A DNA stretch of 48,804 nt, taken from positions 1 to 48,804 of the forward strand of contig JACFNV010000006.1 in NCBI GenBank assembly GCA_019454675.1, written 5' to 3'. The translations under genes were made by a program, and so were the position numbers. Below, one piece after another: positions 15,339 through 21,150 of this stretch (position 1 is its first letter; each line of letters begins with the position of its first letter). This DNA is from Gammaproteobacteria bacterium. GTDB taxonomy: Bacteria > Pseudomonadota > Gammaproteobacteria > Steroidobacterales > GCA-2729495. Below the pieces are notes generated by a model. The model made no database searches, had not been told where the DNA came from, and worked only from the letters and a program-made list of their open reading frames with translations.

Positions 15339-16220
15339 TCAATCCGTGTTGCGGCATGCCCCGGGCAGGATGGCCTCGCAGCCCTGCGCGGGGTCGGCAA
15401 GGAAGCGCAGCAGCGCGGCGCGGATCTCCGGGTCCATGAAGCTGCCGATGTGCGGGCCGTCGTAGCCGAGCAGGAAGCGCGGCGGGCGGGCGGCGGCAAA
15501 CAGCGCCTCGGCATGGCGATGGTCGACGATGGCATCCTGCCTGCCGTGGATCAGCAGCAGCGGCACCGGGCTGATGTTGCCGACCTGGTCGAGCAGGTCG
15601 TAGCCGCGCGGCATGGACCAGCCGATGGGCCATTGCAGCGGCCAGGTCAGCCAGCTCTGGCGCGCCACGTCGTGGGCGATCCAGCGGTAGCGTGCAAAGC
15701 CGGCGTCGAGGACCACGCCCGCCAGGCGCGAGCGCAGCGCCGGATCCGCGCCGGCAAGATAGCCACCCAGCGTTGCGCCCAGGCTCTGCCCGAGCAGGTA
15801 CAGCGGCAGGCCCTGCGTCGCCGGCTCGCCGGCCAGCCAGTCGAATGCGGCATGCAGGTCGGCGAAGACCGCCGGTATGCGTGGCGTGCCCTCCGAGCCG
15901 CCAAAGCCGCGGTAGTCGAGCAGCAGCACCTGGTAGCCCTCGGCCGGCAGCCAGTACACGCTTGCCAGGTGCGTGCTGATGTTCTCCGCGTTGCCGTGCA
16001 GGAACAGCACGCTGCCCCGCGCCGGTCCCTGTGCTGGCAGCCACCAGGCTGCAAGCCGGGTGCCGTCCGCCGCCATCAGCTCCACGTCGCGGTAGGCGAT
16101 GCCGACGTCGGCCGGGGTGCGCAGCAGCGGGCGCATCGGCATGAACAACATCCGGCTGCAGCCGCTGAGCAGGAGCGCGCACAGGGCGAGCATCAGCCGG
16201 CTGAAGATGCGTTTCTTCAC
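15339..16220 (-). CDS. Lipoprotein alpha/beta hydrolase (BAAT/FrsA-like)
   Basis: This 293-residue protein has a lipoprotein signal peptide ending in LLSGC (Cys21). The alpha/beta hydrolase fold shows the oxyanion region LFLHGNAENIS, nucleophile elbow GQSLGATLGG, an Asp in IHGRQDAIVDH and a His in YDGPHIGS. This pattern is that of the bem46/YfhR-like family. The start is GTG 16220, which overlaps the DUF4105 stop in a GTGA junction, so the two are translationally coupled and probably act together in the envelope. The substrate is unknown. Confidence 0.9.
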   Translation of the reverse strand: MKKRIFSRLMLALCALLLSGCSRMLFMPMRPLLRTPADVGIAYRDVELMAADGTRLAAWWLPAQGPARGSVLFLHGNAENISTHLASVYWLPAEGYQVLLLDYRGFGGSEGTPRIPAVFADLHAAFDWLAGEPATQGLPLYLLGQSLGATLGGYLAGADPALRSRLAGVVLDAGFARYRWIAHDVARQSWLTWPLQWPIGWSMPRGYDLLDQVGNISPVPLLLIHGRQDAIVDHRHAEALFAAARPPRFLLGYDGPHIGSFMDPEIRAALLRFLADPAQGCEAILPGACRNTD

Positions 16221-18091
16221 GGCCCGAAATGGTAGCGCAGCGAAAGGCTGGCCTCGTTGATGCGGTCGCTGTCGCCGAGGTGCCGCTCCAGCGCGAGGCG
16301 CAGCGCCAGGTTCGTCCCCAGCGGCAGGTTCTGGCGCAGGGCAAGCAGGCTGCGCTTGTCGCCATCGCTGAAGTGGTAATGGTCGGCGGTGGCCAGGGTT
16401 ACGCCGGCGGGCGTGGTGAGGCGCAGGCCGGCGGCGAGCCCCGGGGCCACGTCGAGCTCCCTGTCCCTGGCATGGTTGAATTCCACCCTGCCGGTGGCGA
16501 GCAGGAACAGGCTGAGGCCGGGTGTTGGCGCCCGCGTCCAGCCGAAGCCGGCGTTGAGCTGCGGAACCAGCACGTCATCGCCCGCCGTCCACTGGCGCTC
16601 GAGCCCCGCATTGACCCGCCAGGACCACGGCTGGAAGAACTCGTCGCGGGTGCCGAGCGAGGTGATCTCCAGCAGGTCGAGGCGCTGCAGCTGCAGCGTG
16701 CCGCCCTCCTTGAGGCGCAGGAGGAAGCGTCCCATGTTGAGCGAGGCGCCGGGCGGATAACCGACATCCCGGTCATTCAGGTCGTGGTAGCTCAGGCGCC
16801 ACTCCAGCTCGGCAAAGCCGCGCTGGTCTGCCACGCCGCCACCGAAGCCCAGCAGGGCGGTGCGGTGGCCTTGCTCGGGAGCCGGTGGACGGGGAGGAGG
16901 CGGGGGCGCGGCGCCGGCGGCGTTTTGCCGGAGCTGCTGGAGCAGCGCGAAGTTCTGCCTGGCGAGCGCCTCGGTGGTGGGGGCGTGGACCGCGCGATCG
17001 CGGAAGAATCGATAGGCGGTATCGACCACCAGGTGTCGGCGCCCGGGTTCCAGTGCCGCCAGGGCAGGCGCGTGCGCCGGCGTAGCGGCATCGGCCATGC
17101 TGCGTGCGAGGGTGCGCTCATCCGCCGTCATCAGGCCGATCTGGTGCCGGAGCGTGGTGCGGCTGGCCGGACGGTATGCGACAGCGCTGACCATGCCGGC
17201 ATCGATCACCGCGCGCACCGTATCGATGGGGATCGCATGGTAGGGAAAGCGGCCGGCCAGGTCGTGGCCCGGCCTGGCGATGTCGAGCAGCTCCAGCAGG
17301 CGCAGCGAGCAGTTCTCGTCGAAGAAATAGTAGTCGAAGCGGATGCCGCGCAATTCCCAGGCATGGGCAAGCAGGCGGTCGATTTCCGCGGCGGAGAGGT
17401 CGAGTTCGTATTCCCACAGGTCGCGGCTCTCGATGCGCGAGTACTCGCGCAGCTTCTCGAAGTAGGGTCCGGCAGCGAACTGCCCCGGGTAGCCGCCGAA
17501 CAATCCGCGCCAGGCGTAGACGAAGCCGTTTTCCCCGGGCGGAACCGTGGCGCCGAAATTCAGGGCCCACGAGAGCAGCGGGGTCTCGCGTTCGGGGCTT
17601 TGCGAGTCGAAGCGCAGGAAGGTGTGCCCGTACATCGAGGAGGGGCTGTTGAGGTAGCTGGCGGCAAAGACCAGCACCACCCGGTTGACCGCCAGCACGT
17701 GGCGCCACTCCGCGTACTCCTCGCAGCTTGCCGCCGGCATCCCCGCCGCCAGCCCGGGCAGCCGCTCCTGCAGCCAGGCGCGGCGTGCGGGGAAGCGGCA
17801 CTGGATCGCGGGATCCTCCAGCAGGCCCTGCAGCGTGGCGTCGAGCTCGGCCGCCGGGTCGGTGGGCCCGCGGCGGCTGAGGAAGAAGGTGGCATCGTCG
17901 ACGAAGTTGCGAATCCCGCCGGGGCGCCATGAGGAGGTGTAGTGGAGCAGCTGCAGCCACTGCGGGTCCGCGGCCAGGCCCTGGTGCCGGGCTGCAGCCT
18001 GCAGTTCCTCGGCGGGGCCGGCTGCCCGGGCCACGCCGAGGGCCAGCAGCAGGCAGAGGGCGCCCAGCAGGGCGCGCACTTTGGGGAGCAT
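16217..18091 (-). CDS. DUF4105 (Lnb-type periplasmic domain) envelope protein
   Basis: This 624-residue exported protein starts with a signal peptide (MLPKVRALLGALCLLLALGVARA). The DUF4105 domain spans roughly 130-400, including SPSSMYGHTFLR and FFDENCSLRLLELLDIARPG, whose Cys/His-rich pattern is conserved in the family. The C-terminal ~200 residues (from about 420) are rich in alternating polar/aromatic strands such as WRLSYHDLNDRDVGYPPG and end in LSLRYHFGP, with a terminal hydrophobic/aromatic pattern like an outer-membrane barrel. No Shine-Dalgarno is obvious before ATG 18091. It is the first gene of a two-gene unit with the lipoprotein hydrolase. Confidence 0.88.
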   Translation of the reverse strand: MLPKVRALLGALCLLLALGVARAAGPAEELQAAARHQGLAADPQWLQLLHYTSSWRPGGIRNFVDDATFFLSRRGPTDPAAELDATLQGLLEDPAIQCRFPARRAWLQERLPGLAAGMPAASCEEYAEWRHVLAVNRVVLVFAASYLNSPSSMYGHTFLRFDSQSPERETPLLSWALNFGATVPPGENGFVYAWRGLFGGYPGQFAAGPYFEKLREYSRIESRDLWEYELDLSAAEIDRLLAHAWELRGIRFDYYFFDENCSLRLLELLDIARPGHDLAGRFPYHAIPIDTVRAVIDAGMVSAVAYRPASRTTLRHQIGLMTADERTLARSMADAATPAHAPALAALEPGRRHLVVDTAYRFFRDRAVHAPTTEALARQNFALLQQLRQNAAGAAPPPPPRPPAPEQGHRTALLGFGGGVADQRGFAELEWRLSYHDLNDRDVGYPPGASLNMGRFLLRLKEGGTLQLQRLDLLEITSLGTRDEFFQPWSWRVNAGLERQWTAGDDVLVPQLNAGFGWTRAPTPGLSLFLLATGRVEFNHARDRELDVAPGLAAGLRLTTPAGVTLATADHYHFSDGDKRSLLALRQNLPLGTNLALRLALERHLGDSDRINEASLSLRYHFGP

Positions 18092-18141
18092 CGGCTGGGA
18101 GAAGGTGCCGCCCGGCCCCTGCGGGCCGGGCGGCCGTCGGC

Positions 18142-18618
18142 TCAGGATACGTAGCCGGCCAGGCGGTCGTCGGCGCGCATCAGCTCGATGACGCGATCAC
18201 TGACCTGCTCGGCGGTGACCTCGCTGGAGGGGAAGAGCGTGGCGAAGTTGTCGTGCATCACCTGCTTGAATGCTGCGCGGTCGGCCTCGTTGATGCCGAG
18301 CGCAACGGCGACAGCGCTCAGCGCCTCGCCATCACCACGCGCCACGTCCTCGCTGAACTCGTCCATGACCGCGCCGATCAGCGACTTGCCGCCGTAGGTC
18401 AGGGTGCCATTGGCCGAGCAGCCGTTGGTGCCGGTGGTCATGCCGAAAGTCGCATTGCCGCTGGTGCCATTGGTCAGGCTGGCGATGACATGGGCGCCCA
18501 GCCCGGACTGGCCCTTCATCAGCATGTTGCCCCAGCCGCAGTTCGGGCCGCCGGGTGCTTCCGCCATCGCGGTGGCCGACAGGCCCAGTAGTGCCGTTGC
18601 GATCAGAATCCGCTTCAT
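18142..18618 (-). CDS. DUF3015 family secreted protein
   Basis: This 158-residue protein carries a signal peptide (MKRILIATALLGLSATAMA). A DUF3015-typical core follows with PNCGWGNMLMKGQ, TNGTSGNATFGMTTGT and NGCSANG. The two Cys may pair in the periplasm. ATG 18618 is chosen because GGGGAG lies at ideal spacing upstream and the signal peptide begins there; the frame is open further upstream but without similarity. The family is common in gammaproteobacteria and uncharacterised. It ends 51 bp before the DUF4105 gene and could be co-transcribed with it. Confidence 0.88.
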   Translation of the reverse strand: MKRILIATALLGLSATAMAEAPGGPNCGWGNMLMKGQSGLGAHVIASLTNGTSGNATFGMTTGTNGCSANGTLTYGGKSLIGAVMDEFSEDVARGDGEALSAVAVALGINEADRAAFKQVMHDNFATLFPSSEVTAEQVSDRVIELMRADDRLAGYVS

Positions 18619-18768
18619 GAGATCTCCCCTTTGTTGAGTGTGCGATACGCGCATAAGAAGCACGCAAACGTGTGCCGATCCCGGCGTTGTGATGCTAACA
18701 CAGTGCGGGGGATGTCGGGGAGTGCGTTCGTGCCACCGATGGCCGTGCCGCTGCCGGCCGCGCGCCAG

Positions 18769-18835
18769 AAAAAAAAGAGCCCGCATGGCTGGATCTGCAT
18801 GAACAGTGTCCCGGCCGGGACCGCCATGCGGGCTC
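18769..18835 (-). terminator. Intrinsic terminator behind the 38-residue peptide gene
   Basis: Read on the minus strand, a perfect 12-bp stem (GAGCCCGCATGG, 18835-18824, with CCATGCGGGCTC, 18788-18777) is followed directly by eight U (18776-18769). The 35-nt loop contains a further 14-nt palindrome, GTCCCGGCCGGGAC (18808-18821). Polarity fits a transcript coming from the sigma-54 promoter near 19199 and shields the DUF3015 gene from it. Confidence 0.8.
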
Positions 18836-19028
18836 CTGGCTGCAGGCCCCTGGAGGGGGGGGTGGGCCTGCCGCCGTGACGGACCGTGCCGTCGCTTCGG
18901 GTCGTGCGCGAAGGGGGGCTACGCTACGACCCTGAAGAGGGTTGATCTCGGTTGCCTGTGCTGCCAATCCCTGTCGTCAGTTACCATGAGTGGTGACGCA
19001 GACGACCGGCGAGCCAGAACCTGGCTGA
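18836..19028 (-). other. Structured non-coding stretch between peptide gene and terminator
   Basis: Together with the terminator and the DUF3015 leader, this forms a gap of about 410 bases without a recognisable gene. It contains inverted repeats that could fold in RNA: GGGTCGT (18899-18905) with ACGACCC (18926-18932), and ACCCT (18929-18933) with AGGGT (18938-18942). These two pairings share bases, so they are mutually exclusive. GACGG/CCGTC (18878-18893 region) is a third short hairpin. No riboswitch family is recognised on either strand. It would be the 3' untranslated part of the sigma-54 transcript, or a small RNA released from it. Confidence 0.4.
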
Positions 19029-19145
19029 TCAGAGCGAGAATCCGGCATTGATGGCCGCCAGGACCATGACCGTAGCCGCTACTGCCAGCAGCGCTGCCGA
19101 GAGCCGTTCGCCGTTGAGGTTAAAGAGCCAGTTTCTGCTATCCAT
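19029..19145 (-). CDS. 38-residue single-pass membrane peptide under a sigma-54 promoter
   Basis: This short frame encodes 38 residues: a polar N-terminus (MDSRNWLFNLNGER) and one hydrophobic helix (residues 15-38, LSAALLAVAATVMVLAAI then NAGFSL) that reaches the C-terminus. AGGAAAGG lies 7-14 bp before ATG 19145, a good ribosome site. An upstream in-frame ATG at 19241 would run across the sigma-54 promoter and is rejected. The gene is preceded by a near-consensus -24/-12 element and followed by foldable sequence and an intrinsic terminator, giving a transcript of about 420 nt. I recognise no family. It could be a membrane-inserted regulator or effector of the divergent PAS activator, or a leader for a regulatory RNA. 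Confidence 0.6.
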   Translation of the reverse strand: MDSRNWLFNLNGERLSAALLAVAATVMVLAAINAGFSL

Positions 19146-19198
19146 GATGTTGCCTTTCCTGCTTGCAATGGACCTGCCTTCAGATCCACTGTAGGTAT

Positions 19199-19215
19199 AG
19201 CAACAAGCGTGCCAA
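19199..19215 (-). promoter_or_regulatory. Sigma-54 (-24/-12) promoter of the 38-residue peptide gene
   Basis: The minus strand reads TTGGCACGCTTGTTGCT (19215 to 19199). This matches the RpoN consensus YTGGCACG-N4-TTGCW, with the required five bases between TGGCAC and TTGC. The predicted +1 is near 19188, about 43 nt before the ATG at 19145. It lies in the divergent region facing away from the sigma-54 activator gene. Confidence 0.85.
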
Positions 19216-19262
19216 TCTTGGTTTCTTTTCAAATCAGTCATTTACATGCAATTCGACGATGA

Positions 19263-19311
19263 CGATATTTCGTAATCACGAAATATCGTGGTATTAAATT
19301 ACGAAATATCG
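19263..19311. promoter_or_regulatory. Upstream activating sites: three copies of CGAAATATCG
   Basis: CGATATTTCG (19263-19272) and CGAAATATCG (19279-19288) form a perfect inverted repeat with a 6-bp spacer, and a third direct copy occupies 19302-19311. The sites lie 75-100 and 114-123 bp upstream of the predicted sigma-54 start point, the usual place for enhancer-binding-protein sites. They stand in sharply AT-rich sequence unlike the surroundings. The third copy ends 12 bp before the activator's ATG, so binding could also repress that gene. I infer that the divergent Fis-type protein binds here. Confidence 0.7.
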
Positions 19312-19317
19312 TAATAT
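19312..19317 (+). promoter_or_regulatory. Candidate -10 box of the sigma-54 activator gene
   Basis: TAATAT ends 6 bp before ATG 19324, so +1 would fall at the start codon and the mRNA could be leaderless; no Shine-Dalgarno is visible. TATTAA at 19292-19297 is an alternative. Both lie among the CGAAATATCG repeats, which is compatible with autoregulation. Confidence 0.35.
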
Positions 19318-19323
19318 CGCGGC

Positions 19324-21150
19324 ATGGCCGAGCCTACCGAAGGCAATACCGGACTGATTCGCAGCATGCCCGTCATGCTGGCGCTGCTCGACAGCGAGGG
19401 GCGTTTCCTCGATGTGACCGATGAATGCGTGCGGCGCATGGGCTACACGCGCGAAGAGCTGCGCGGGCGCCGTCCGGACGACATCGCCACGCCGCCCAGT
19501 GCACGCCGCATCCGCGAGGAGCTTCTGCCGCATTTCCGCCGCATCGGGCGCCTCGACCATGTACCGGTGGAGTTTTTCACCAAGGGCGGCCAGGTGCTGG
19601 GGCTGCTGGCCACCACGGTCGGGGTGCACGGGCCGGATGGCGCCAGCTTGCGCTATTCGGTCTCGCTGTTCGAGGAGCCCTCGGATCGCGAGCGCCTGGA
19701 GCGCCGCTACCTCGACCTGTATGAGTCCACCCCGGCCATGCTGCATACCATCGATCCGGATGGGCGCATCACCGCGGTCAGCAACCACTGGCTGCGCAAG
19801 CTCGGCTATCAGCGCAAGGAGGTCATCGGCCGCTCCATCCTCGAGTTCCTCAGCGAGGAATCGCGCCGCCCGCTGATGGATGAGCGGCTGCGCGACCACA
19901 TCAGCCGGGGGGATGCCCTCAACGTGCCCCGGCAGATGGTCAGGAAGGATGGCGAGCTCGTCGACGTGGTGATGAACGCCCGCGCCGAGCTCAATGCCCA
20001 GGGCGAGGTGATCCGCCTGCTGGTCGCCAGCAAGGATGTCACCGAGCGCAACCGGGCCGAGGCACGCCTGCGCGACGCCTATGGCGAGATCGCCCGCCTC
20101 AAGGAGGAGCTCGAGCGCGAGCGCGACTACCTGCGCGAGGAAGTCAATGTCTCGATGAACTTCGGCCGCATCGTCGGCGAGAGCCCGGCGCTGGCAGCGA
20201 TGATGGCGCGCATCGAGGCGGTGGCCTCGACGCCTGCCAGCGTGCTGATCATCGGCGAGACCGGATCGGGCAAGGAGCTGGTAGCGCATGCGATCCACGC
20301 CCGCAGCCAGCGGGCTGACGGGCCGCTGGTCAAGGTCAACTGCGCGGCCATCCCCGACGAGCTCTTTGAAAGCGAGTTCTTCGGCCATGTGCGCGGCGCC
20401 TTCACCGGTGCCCACCGCGATCGCGTGGGCCGCTTCGAGCTGGCCGATGGCGGCACCATCTTCCTCGACGAGGTCGGCGAGATCCCTCTGCCGCTGCAGG
20501 GCAAGCTGCTGCGCGTGCTGCAGGAGCGGGAGTTCGAGCGCGTGGGCGATGACCGCACGCGCAAGGTGGACGTGCGGGTCATCGCCGCCACCAACAAGGA
20601 CCTCGAGAAGGCGGTGGAGGCCGGCGAGTTCCGCGAGGACCTGTACTACCGCCTTGGCGTGTTCCCGGTGCAGGTGCCGCCGCTGCGCAAGCGCGGCGAT
20701 GACGTGGTGCAGCTGGCGCAGCATTTCCTCGGCCAGGTCTGCCGCCAGTTCGGCCGGCCGCTGGCGCGGCTGAGCGAGGCCCAGATCGAGGACCTGCGTC
20801 GCTACGACTGGCCCGGCAATGTCCGCGAGCTGAAGAACGTCATCGAGAGGGCGGTGATCCTCTCGAAGGGCAATGCCCTGCGCCTGGATCTTTCGCTGCC
20901 CGCGGCGGGCACGGCGCCTGCCGCGGCTGCCGCGCCGGCCGTATCCGCGGTGCCGGAGGCCAGCGAGGGCTTCCTGACCGAGGCGGGCATGCGCGACCTG
21001 CAGCGTCGCAACCTGCTTGCCGCGCTGGAGAAGGCGGACTGGCGTGTCTCGGGCAAGGGAGGTGCTGCCGAGCTGCTCGGCATCCGGCCGACCACCCTCA
21101 ACGACCGGATGCGCTCCTTCGGCATCAGCCGTCCGCAGCGCGGAGGTTGA
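19324..21150 (+). CDS. PAS-PAS sigma-54 dependent transcriptional activator (Fis family)
   Basis: This 608-residue enhancer-binding protein has two N-terminal PAS domains (about 8-120 and 125-240), a coiled coil (about 245-275, [17 protein letters not shown]), an AAA+ domain (about 280-510) and a C-terminal Fis-type helix-turn-helix (about 555-602). Walker A is GETGSGKE (311-318), the sigma-54 contact loop GAFTGA is intact (358-363), Walker B is [11 protein letters not shown], and the NVRELKN motif is present. There is no receiver domain, so the signal is probably sensed by the PAS domains, ligand unknown. It is divergent from the 38-residue gene with its sigma-54 promoter, which is its likeliest target. 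Confidence 0.93.

Follow-up and report, generated by a model that had tools for sequence, protein, structure and literature searches.

This locus raises two linked questions: what three copies of a short motif do between the gene of a sigma-54 activator and a divergent sigma-54 promoter, and what that promoter delivers. An earlier sequence-only reading had proposed that a single set of sites activates a peptide gene and represses the activator. The analysis covered the 48,804-nucleotide stretch of gammaproteobacterial DNA containing the locus (the window, to which all positions refer), its genome and related loci.

Three palindromic sites upstream of a sigma-54 promoter

Exact copies of the 10-mer CGAAATATCG were found at 19263-19272 (-), 19279-19288 (+) and 19302-19311 (+), precisely where the sequence-only reading had placed them and, as it had also stated, about 75-125 bp upstream of the sigma-54 start near 19187. 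The whole 2.38-Mb genome holds three exact copies only, all at this locus. When one mismatch is allowed, five occurrences fall within the window against 0.87 expected, and a palindrome pair 2-8 bp apart, ACGRWWWWYCGT-N2-8-ACGRWWWWYCGT, has this locus as its single genomic place. The motif is thus non-random and confined to this locus, and the repeat is present in orthologues, which rules out the two outcomes that the earlier reading regarded as fatal to its proposal, random genome-wide distribution and absence from orthologous loci.

The true repeat is an imperfect palindrome of 12 bp, ACGRNNNNYCGT, of which each CGAAATATCG copy is the core, and the inverted-plus-direct orientation of the copies is therefore immaterial. 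Of the proposed inverted pair with a third direct copy, the positions stand; the inverted repeat as a unit was rejected, since the orthologue alignment reveals three equivalent palindromes. Copy search and orthologue alignment define site 1 (ACGAAATATCGT, 19301-19312), nearest the activator, site 2 (ACGAAATATCGT, 19278-19289) and site 3 (ACGATATTTCGT, 19262-19273), nearest the sigma-54 promoter, none of them assigned a strand. A fourth near-copy at 19310-19319 is unconserved as a site and overlaps the -10-like region of the activator.

The -24/-12 promoter TGGCACGCTTGTTGCT (19199-19214, - strand), recognised by consensus match and orthologue alignment, fits the sigma-54 consensus TGGCAC-N5-TTGCW and is divergent from the activator. 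Between it and the sites lies an IHF site, TAAATGACTGATT (19232-19244, - strand), the reverse complement of which matches WATCARNNNNTTR exactly. The genome encodes rpoN and four IHF/HU-type genes.

Conservation of the arrangement

Upstream regions were read for 73 loci including the window, 72 of them with the promoter on the contig; many of the genomes compared are metagenomic. Essentially all 72 readable loci carry three ACGNNNNNNCGT palindromes, an IHF box and a sigma-54 promoter (TTGGCAC-N5-TGC), in that order and with a few sites degenerate. The palindromes are spaced by 22-24 and 16-19 bp (typically about 23 and 17) and lie 54-60 bp before TGGCA, or 69 bp in two loci. The window has spacings of 23 bp and, between sites 2 and 3, 16 bp (elsewhere 17-19). 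Its ACGA...TCGT is a variant of the cross-locus consensus ACGGWWTTCCGT. An IHF match with at most one mismatch is found 29-31 bp upstream of TGGCA in 66 of the 72 loci, against 4.6 expected from shuffles; here and below, expected counts come from mono- or dinucleotide shuffles, which do not control for phylogeny, and the counts therefore overstate independence. The same three sites occur in Woeseiaceae MAGs (L086, L089-L091).

A sequence-only model of the region, R1, trained on 68 loci with the window excluded, scores the window at 59.3 bits (E 5.7e-16 in its own genome). In each of 18 genomes it yields one match of E <1e-15, at the activator; weaker second matches occur in three genomes of the Woeseiaceae-type family f7, beside paralogous activators. 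The genome-wide scan that the sequence-only reading had recommended for defining a regulon, run here on this genome, returns one promoter, and no wider regulon was found in it by the R1 search. The only other R1 match in this genome (E 0.001) falls on a sigma-54 promoter with an IHF-like box ahead of a short PEP-CTERM-like ORF (G000:C166:37783-37835, L188); lacking the three sites, it was rejected as a regulon member, and it suggests another bEBP-controlled gene.

The activator and its own promoter

The activator (608 aa, 19324-21150, + strand) comprises, by domain search, two PAS domains, an AAA+ sigma-54 interaction domain with GAFTGA and a Fis-type HTH. Its GAFTGA AAA+ domain and C-terminal HTH are those of a sigma-54 bEBP, and the repeated palindromes lie where the sites of such a regulator would, roughly 80-150 bp before a -24/-12 promoter. 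By curated cut-offs it is neither NorR nor FhlA: it reaches 379.6 bits against the NorR equivalog (cut-off 476), with only residues 247-575 matched, and 369.4 bits against the FhlA equivalog, far under the cut-off of 830. Around 70 genomes of its order encode full-length orthologues with about 53-84% identity; the nearest named relative of the window is MAG SJ574 (L092), whose activator is 84% identical.

Three ACGNNNNNNCGT sites at near-identical spacing also lie beside related PAS-bEBPs outside the order (L196, L197, L199, L201, L204). There they precede target genes different from that of the window, and the operator is therefore a feature of a wider subfamily. The sequence-only reading could not assign the motif to a known Fis-type regulator; it can now be placed in a bEBP subfamily spanning other gammaproteobacterial families, with an FhlA-like half-site.

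With regard to the activator's own promoter, a -10-like hexamer (at least 5/6 to TATAAT) abuts site 1 in the direction of the activator in 35 of the 72 loci against 3.2 expected. In most loci the start codon lies 11-16 bp past site 1, and no Shine-Dalgarno sequence was seen between the two in the loci inspected. This geometry suggests that site 1 sits in the activator promoter and that the activator mRNA may be leaderless. In the window the corresponding box, TAATAT (19312-19317, + strand), abuts site 1 and is recognised from the conserved -10-like box in orthologues; it is a 4/6 match only, and no clear -35 was identified for this promoter.

The predicted sigma-54 transcript

The promoter is followed by a 38-aa putative single-transmembrane peptide ORF (19029-19145, - strand) with a Shine-Dalgarno-like AGGAAAGG. 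Its changes are mostly synonymous: 14 synonymous and 3 nonsynonymous codons separate it from its nearest relative, L077 (= G004). Judged by these codons, purifying selection acts on the peptide within the genus of the window, and the peptide would hence matter too. Relatives encode 50-58 aa, the C-terminal part being missing in this genome, and most other lineages have, in the same transcript, an ORF for a small exported protein or membrane protein, whose sequence is often dissimilar. One sister genus, represented by six species (L014, L016, L017, L018, L021, L035), has no credible ORF after the promoter; this absence is seen clearly in that one genus. Its transcript measures only about 145-172 nt, and the RNA is apparently homologous to the 3'UTR of the window.

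Beyond the peptide ORF, poly-C-loop hairpins and a terminator occupy 18769-18932. Hairpin 1 (18899-18932, - strand), which is supported by compensatory changes, has an apical AGCGUAGCCCCCCUUCGCGC whose C-run is unpaired in the predicted fold. Hairpin 2 (18838-18875, - strand; hairpin scan and fold) has the loop ACCCCCCCCUCCAG, and a terminator hairpin with a U-run (18769-18837, - strand; fold and alignment) would end a transcript of about 420 nt. C-runs of five or more are strongly enriched on the transcript strand, with 138 in 70 loci against 18 G5+ runs and against a mean of 61 and a maximum of 73 C5+ runs in shuffles; 63 of the 70 loci have at least one. Within a predicted hairpin loop lie 98 of 128 C-runs, where shuffled flanks lead one to expect 54. 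The fold z is -5.4 for the 261-nt window RNA and -8.6 for the stand-alone RNA of G023, and stem compensatory changes appear in two alignments. The RNA thus has multiple stable hairpins capped by C-rich loops, as does the sX13 RNA discussed below.

A covariance model built from the RNA of the ORF-less genus, R2, has its sole match in the window genome (E up to 0.1) at the syntenic place, 18766-18896, with a weak score (19.7 bits, E 0.019, short calibration). The syntenic place is likewise the sole match in G004, G007 and G014 (E 0.003 to 3e-6). No R2 match was obtained in G005, G006, G008, G013, G099 and G110, and homology there is therefore drawn from synteny and the C-loops alone. The number and stem sequence of the C-loop hairpins differ between families, and the hairpin scan returned none in several loci (L032, L070, L073, L075, L076). 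No Rfam family, including the sX families, scored above gathering in the loci scanned; sub-threshold matches, among them CcsR1, ar7 and BsrG, were attributed to chance. Three paralogous promoters inspected in Woeseiaceae-type genomes lack any C5 run within 600 nt downstream.

Three further features lie near these RNAs. In family f2 (L055, L056, L064), a strongly conserved block, GGGACCAGAGTTTGCCGTTCGTTCAGGGT...GCCCGAAAC, stands downstream of the C-loops within the same region of the transcript and is perhaps a further structured element. Hairpins with AGGA-type loops (e.g. CCAGGACGG), which resemble CsrA/RsmA sites, stand beside the C-loop hairpins in the Woeseiaceae-type RNA of L042, L043, L051 and L052. 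In the window, genes with DUF3015 and Lnb_N domains (16217-18618, -) lie beyond the terminator of the RNA and share its strand.

Proposed model and alternatives

We consider it probable that a self-limiting activator, a three-site enhancer, IHF and a sigma-54 transcript bearing both a peptide and a C-loop RNA together explain the locus. The model was built from computed features (the sites, their geometry, the conservation of the IHF box and promoter, the single strong locus per genome and the conservation of RNA structure), from which we infer activator binding, activation, autorepression, an RNA function and a signal sensed by the PAS domains. As in NorR, three activator dimers would occupy the neighbouring palindromes and nucleate a single hexamer, which, with the DNA bent by IHF at 19232-19244, would open the sigma-54 promoter at 19199-19214. 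Once occupied, site 1 would cover the activator's own, possibly leaderless, promoter, and the activator would thus limit itself. The activated transcript would give a small membrane peptide and a folded 3' RNA whose poly-C loops, by analogy with sX13, may pair with G-rich ribosome-binding sites and lower the translation of target mRNAs.

The enhancer half of the original proposal is supported, and the adjacent activator is very probably the protein that binds. We regard occupation of the three sites by some other transcription factor as highly improbable: activator binding is our own deduction, yet the sites accompany the activator gene in essentially every readable orthologue, the 18 genomes tested hold no full-strength R1 match at any other place, and comparable sites stand beside related bEBPs outside the order. 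Moreover, at three paralogues with altered sites (two CCACA-like, one ACAAG-like), the recognition helix has Y (STLxYR) where activators of ACG sites have D/S (TTLNDR), a co-change of helix and site that is suggestive, on three examples, of a specificity determinant. The repressive half has the conserved geometry in its favour, which makes autorepression plausible. The sites could instead be purely an enhancer, either because the activator has a further promoter or because site occupancy is too brief, and the 4/6 box without a clear -35 in the window fits such an arrangement; we nevertheless find it rather doubtful, since a -10-like box next to site 1 is conserved, with the start codon in most cases 11-16 bp on, and since the closest analogue, NorR, is bound to its sites ahead of the signal (PMC4987338).

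What the promoter delivers is the remaining point. Activation of the peptide gene, as first proposed, is supported as far as the promoter is concerned and is incomplete as a description, the transcript also carrying a conserved structured RNA that persists in the sister genus without an ORF. The peptide might still be the sole functional product and the C-loop hairpins an elaborate terminator or mRNA stabiliser. Purifying selection on the ORF in the window's genus and the small exported or membrane proteins of most other lineages agree with that reading, which we judge unlikely because the six ORF-less species keep promoter and RNA, because C-rich loops recur across families while their stems change, and because one terminator suffices. 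The persistence of the RNA points instead to a conserved output that is likely an sX13-like RNA with anti-Shine-Dalgarno loops, accompanied by a lineage-variable peptide; the anti-Shine-Dalgarno role is put forward by analogy only. The C-loop RNA appears to be the most widespread product of the conserved sigma-54 switch, and a dual-function transcript is favoured because most other lineages carry a small-protein ORF in it. In its fullest form, which we advance tentatively and would not expect to hold in every part, the model describes a self-limiting sigma-54 switch driving a new family of poly-C-loop RNAs that would act in trans on Shine-Dalgarno sequences, with dual function through the lineage-variable membrane peptide, and to which a leaderless activator mRNA would be immune.

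These results give an unassigned bEBP subfamily a defined operator, ACGRNNNNYCGT in three copies at near-fixed spacing, for which other genomes can be searched. They also tie this operator to a conserved structured RNA, apparently not described before, in several gammaproteobacterial families, including Woeseiaceae. If the model is true, a sigma-54-gated C-loop RNA would link a signal sensed by the PAS domains to translational control on a broad scale.

Comparison with known systems

In the open-access literature, we found no description of a sigma-54-driven C-loop RNA and no paper that treats sigma-54 activators in Woeseia or Woeseiaceae. Among described regulators, FhlA is also a sigma-54 activator, and the TTTCGT/ACGAAA half-sites resemble its enhancer motif CATTTCGTACGAAATG (PMC4987338); here, however, the half-sites are arranged differently and the sensor region of the activator consists of two PAS domains. 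The sRNAs GlmY and GlmZ are likewise transcribed by sigma-54 under a bEBP, GlrR (PMC4987338), whose motif, TGTC-N10-GACA, differs.

The best mechanistic analogue is NorR, for which three sites in the E. coli norR-norVW intergenic region scaffold a DNA-templated hexamer (PMC2941729). As there, three equivalent bEBP sites lie upstream of a sigma-54 promoter. In contrast to NorR, the present activator has PAS domains rather than a GAF sensor, its site is ACGRNNNNYCGT rather than GT-N7-AC, and its target is a peptide/RNA transcript rather than an NO reductase. With regard to the RNA, sX13 of Xanthomonas has three stems with C-rich loops and represses, independently of Hfq, mRNAs that carry G-rich motifs close to their start codons (PMC3771888). 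Compared by structural description, both RNAs have multiple stable stems capped by C-rich loops, and sX13 is the closest structural analogue. Whereas sX13 is encoded beside polA, the RNA described here has a bEBP enhancer and a sigma-54 promoter and frequently comes after an ORF.
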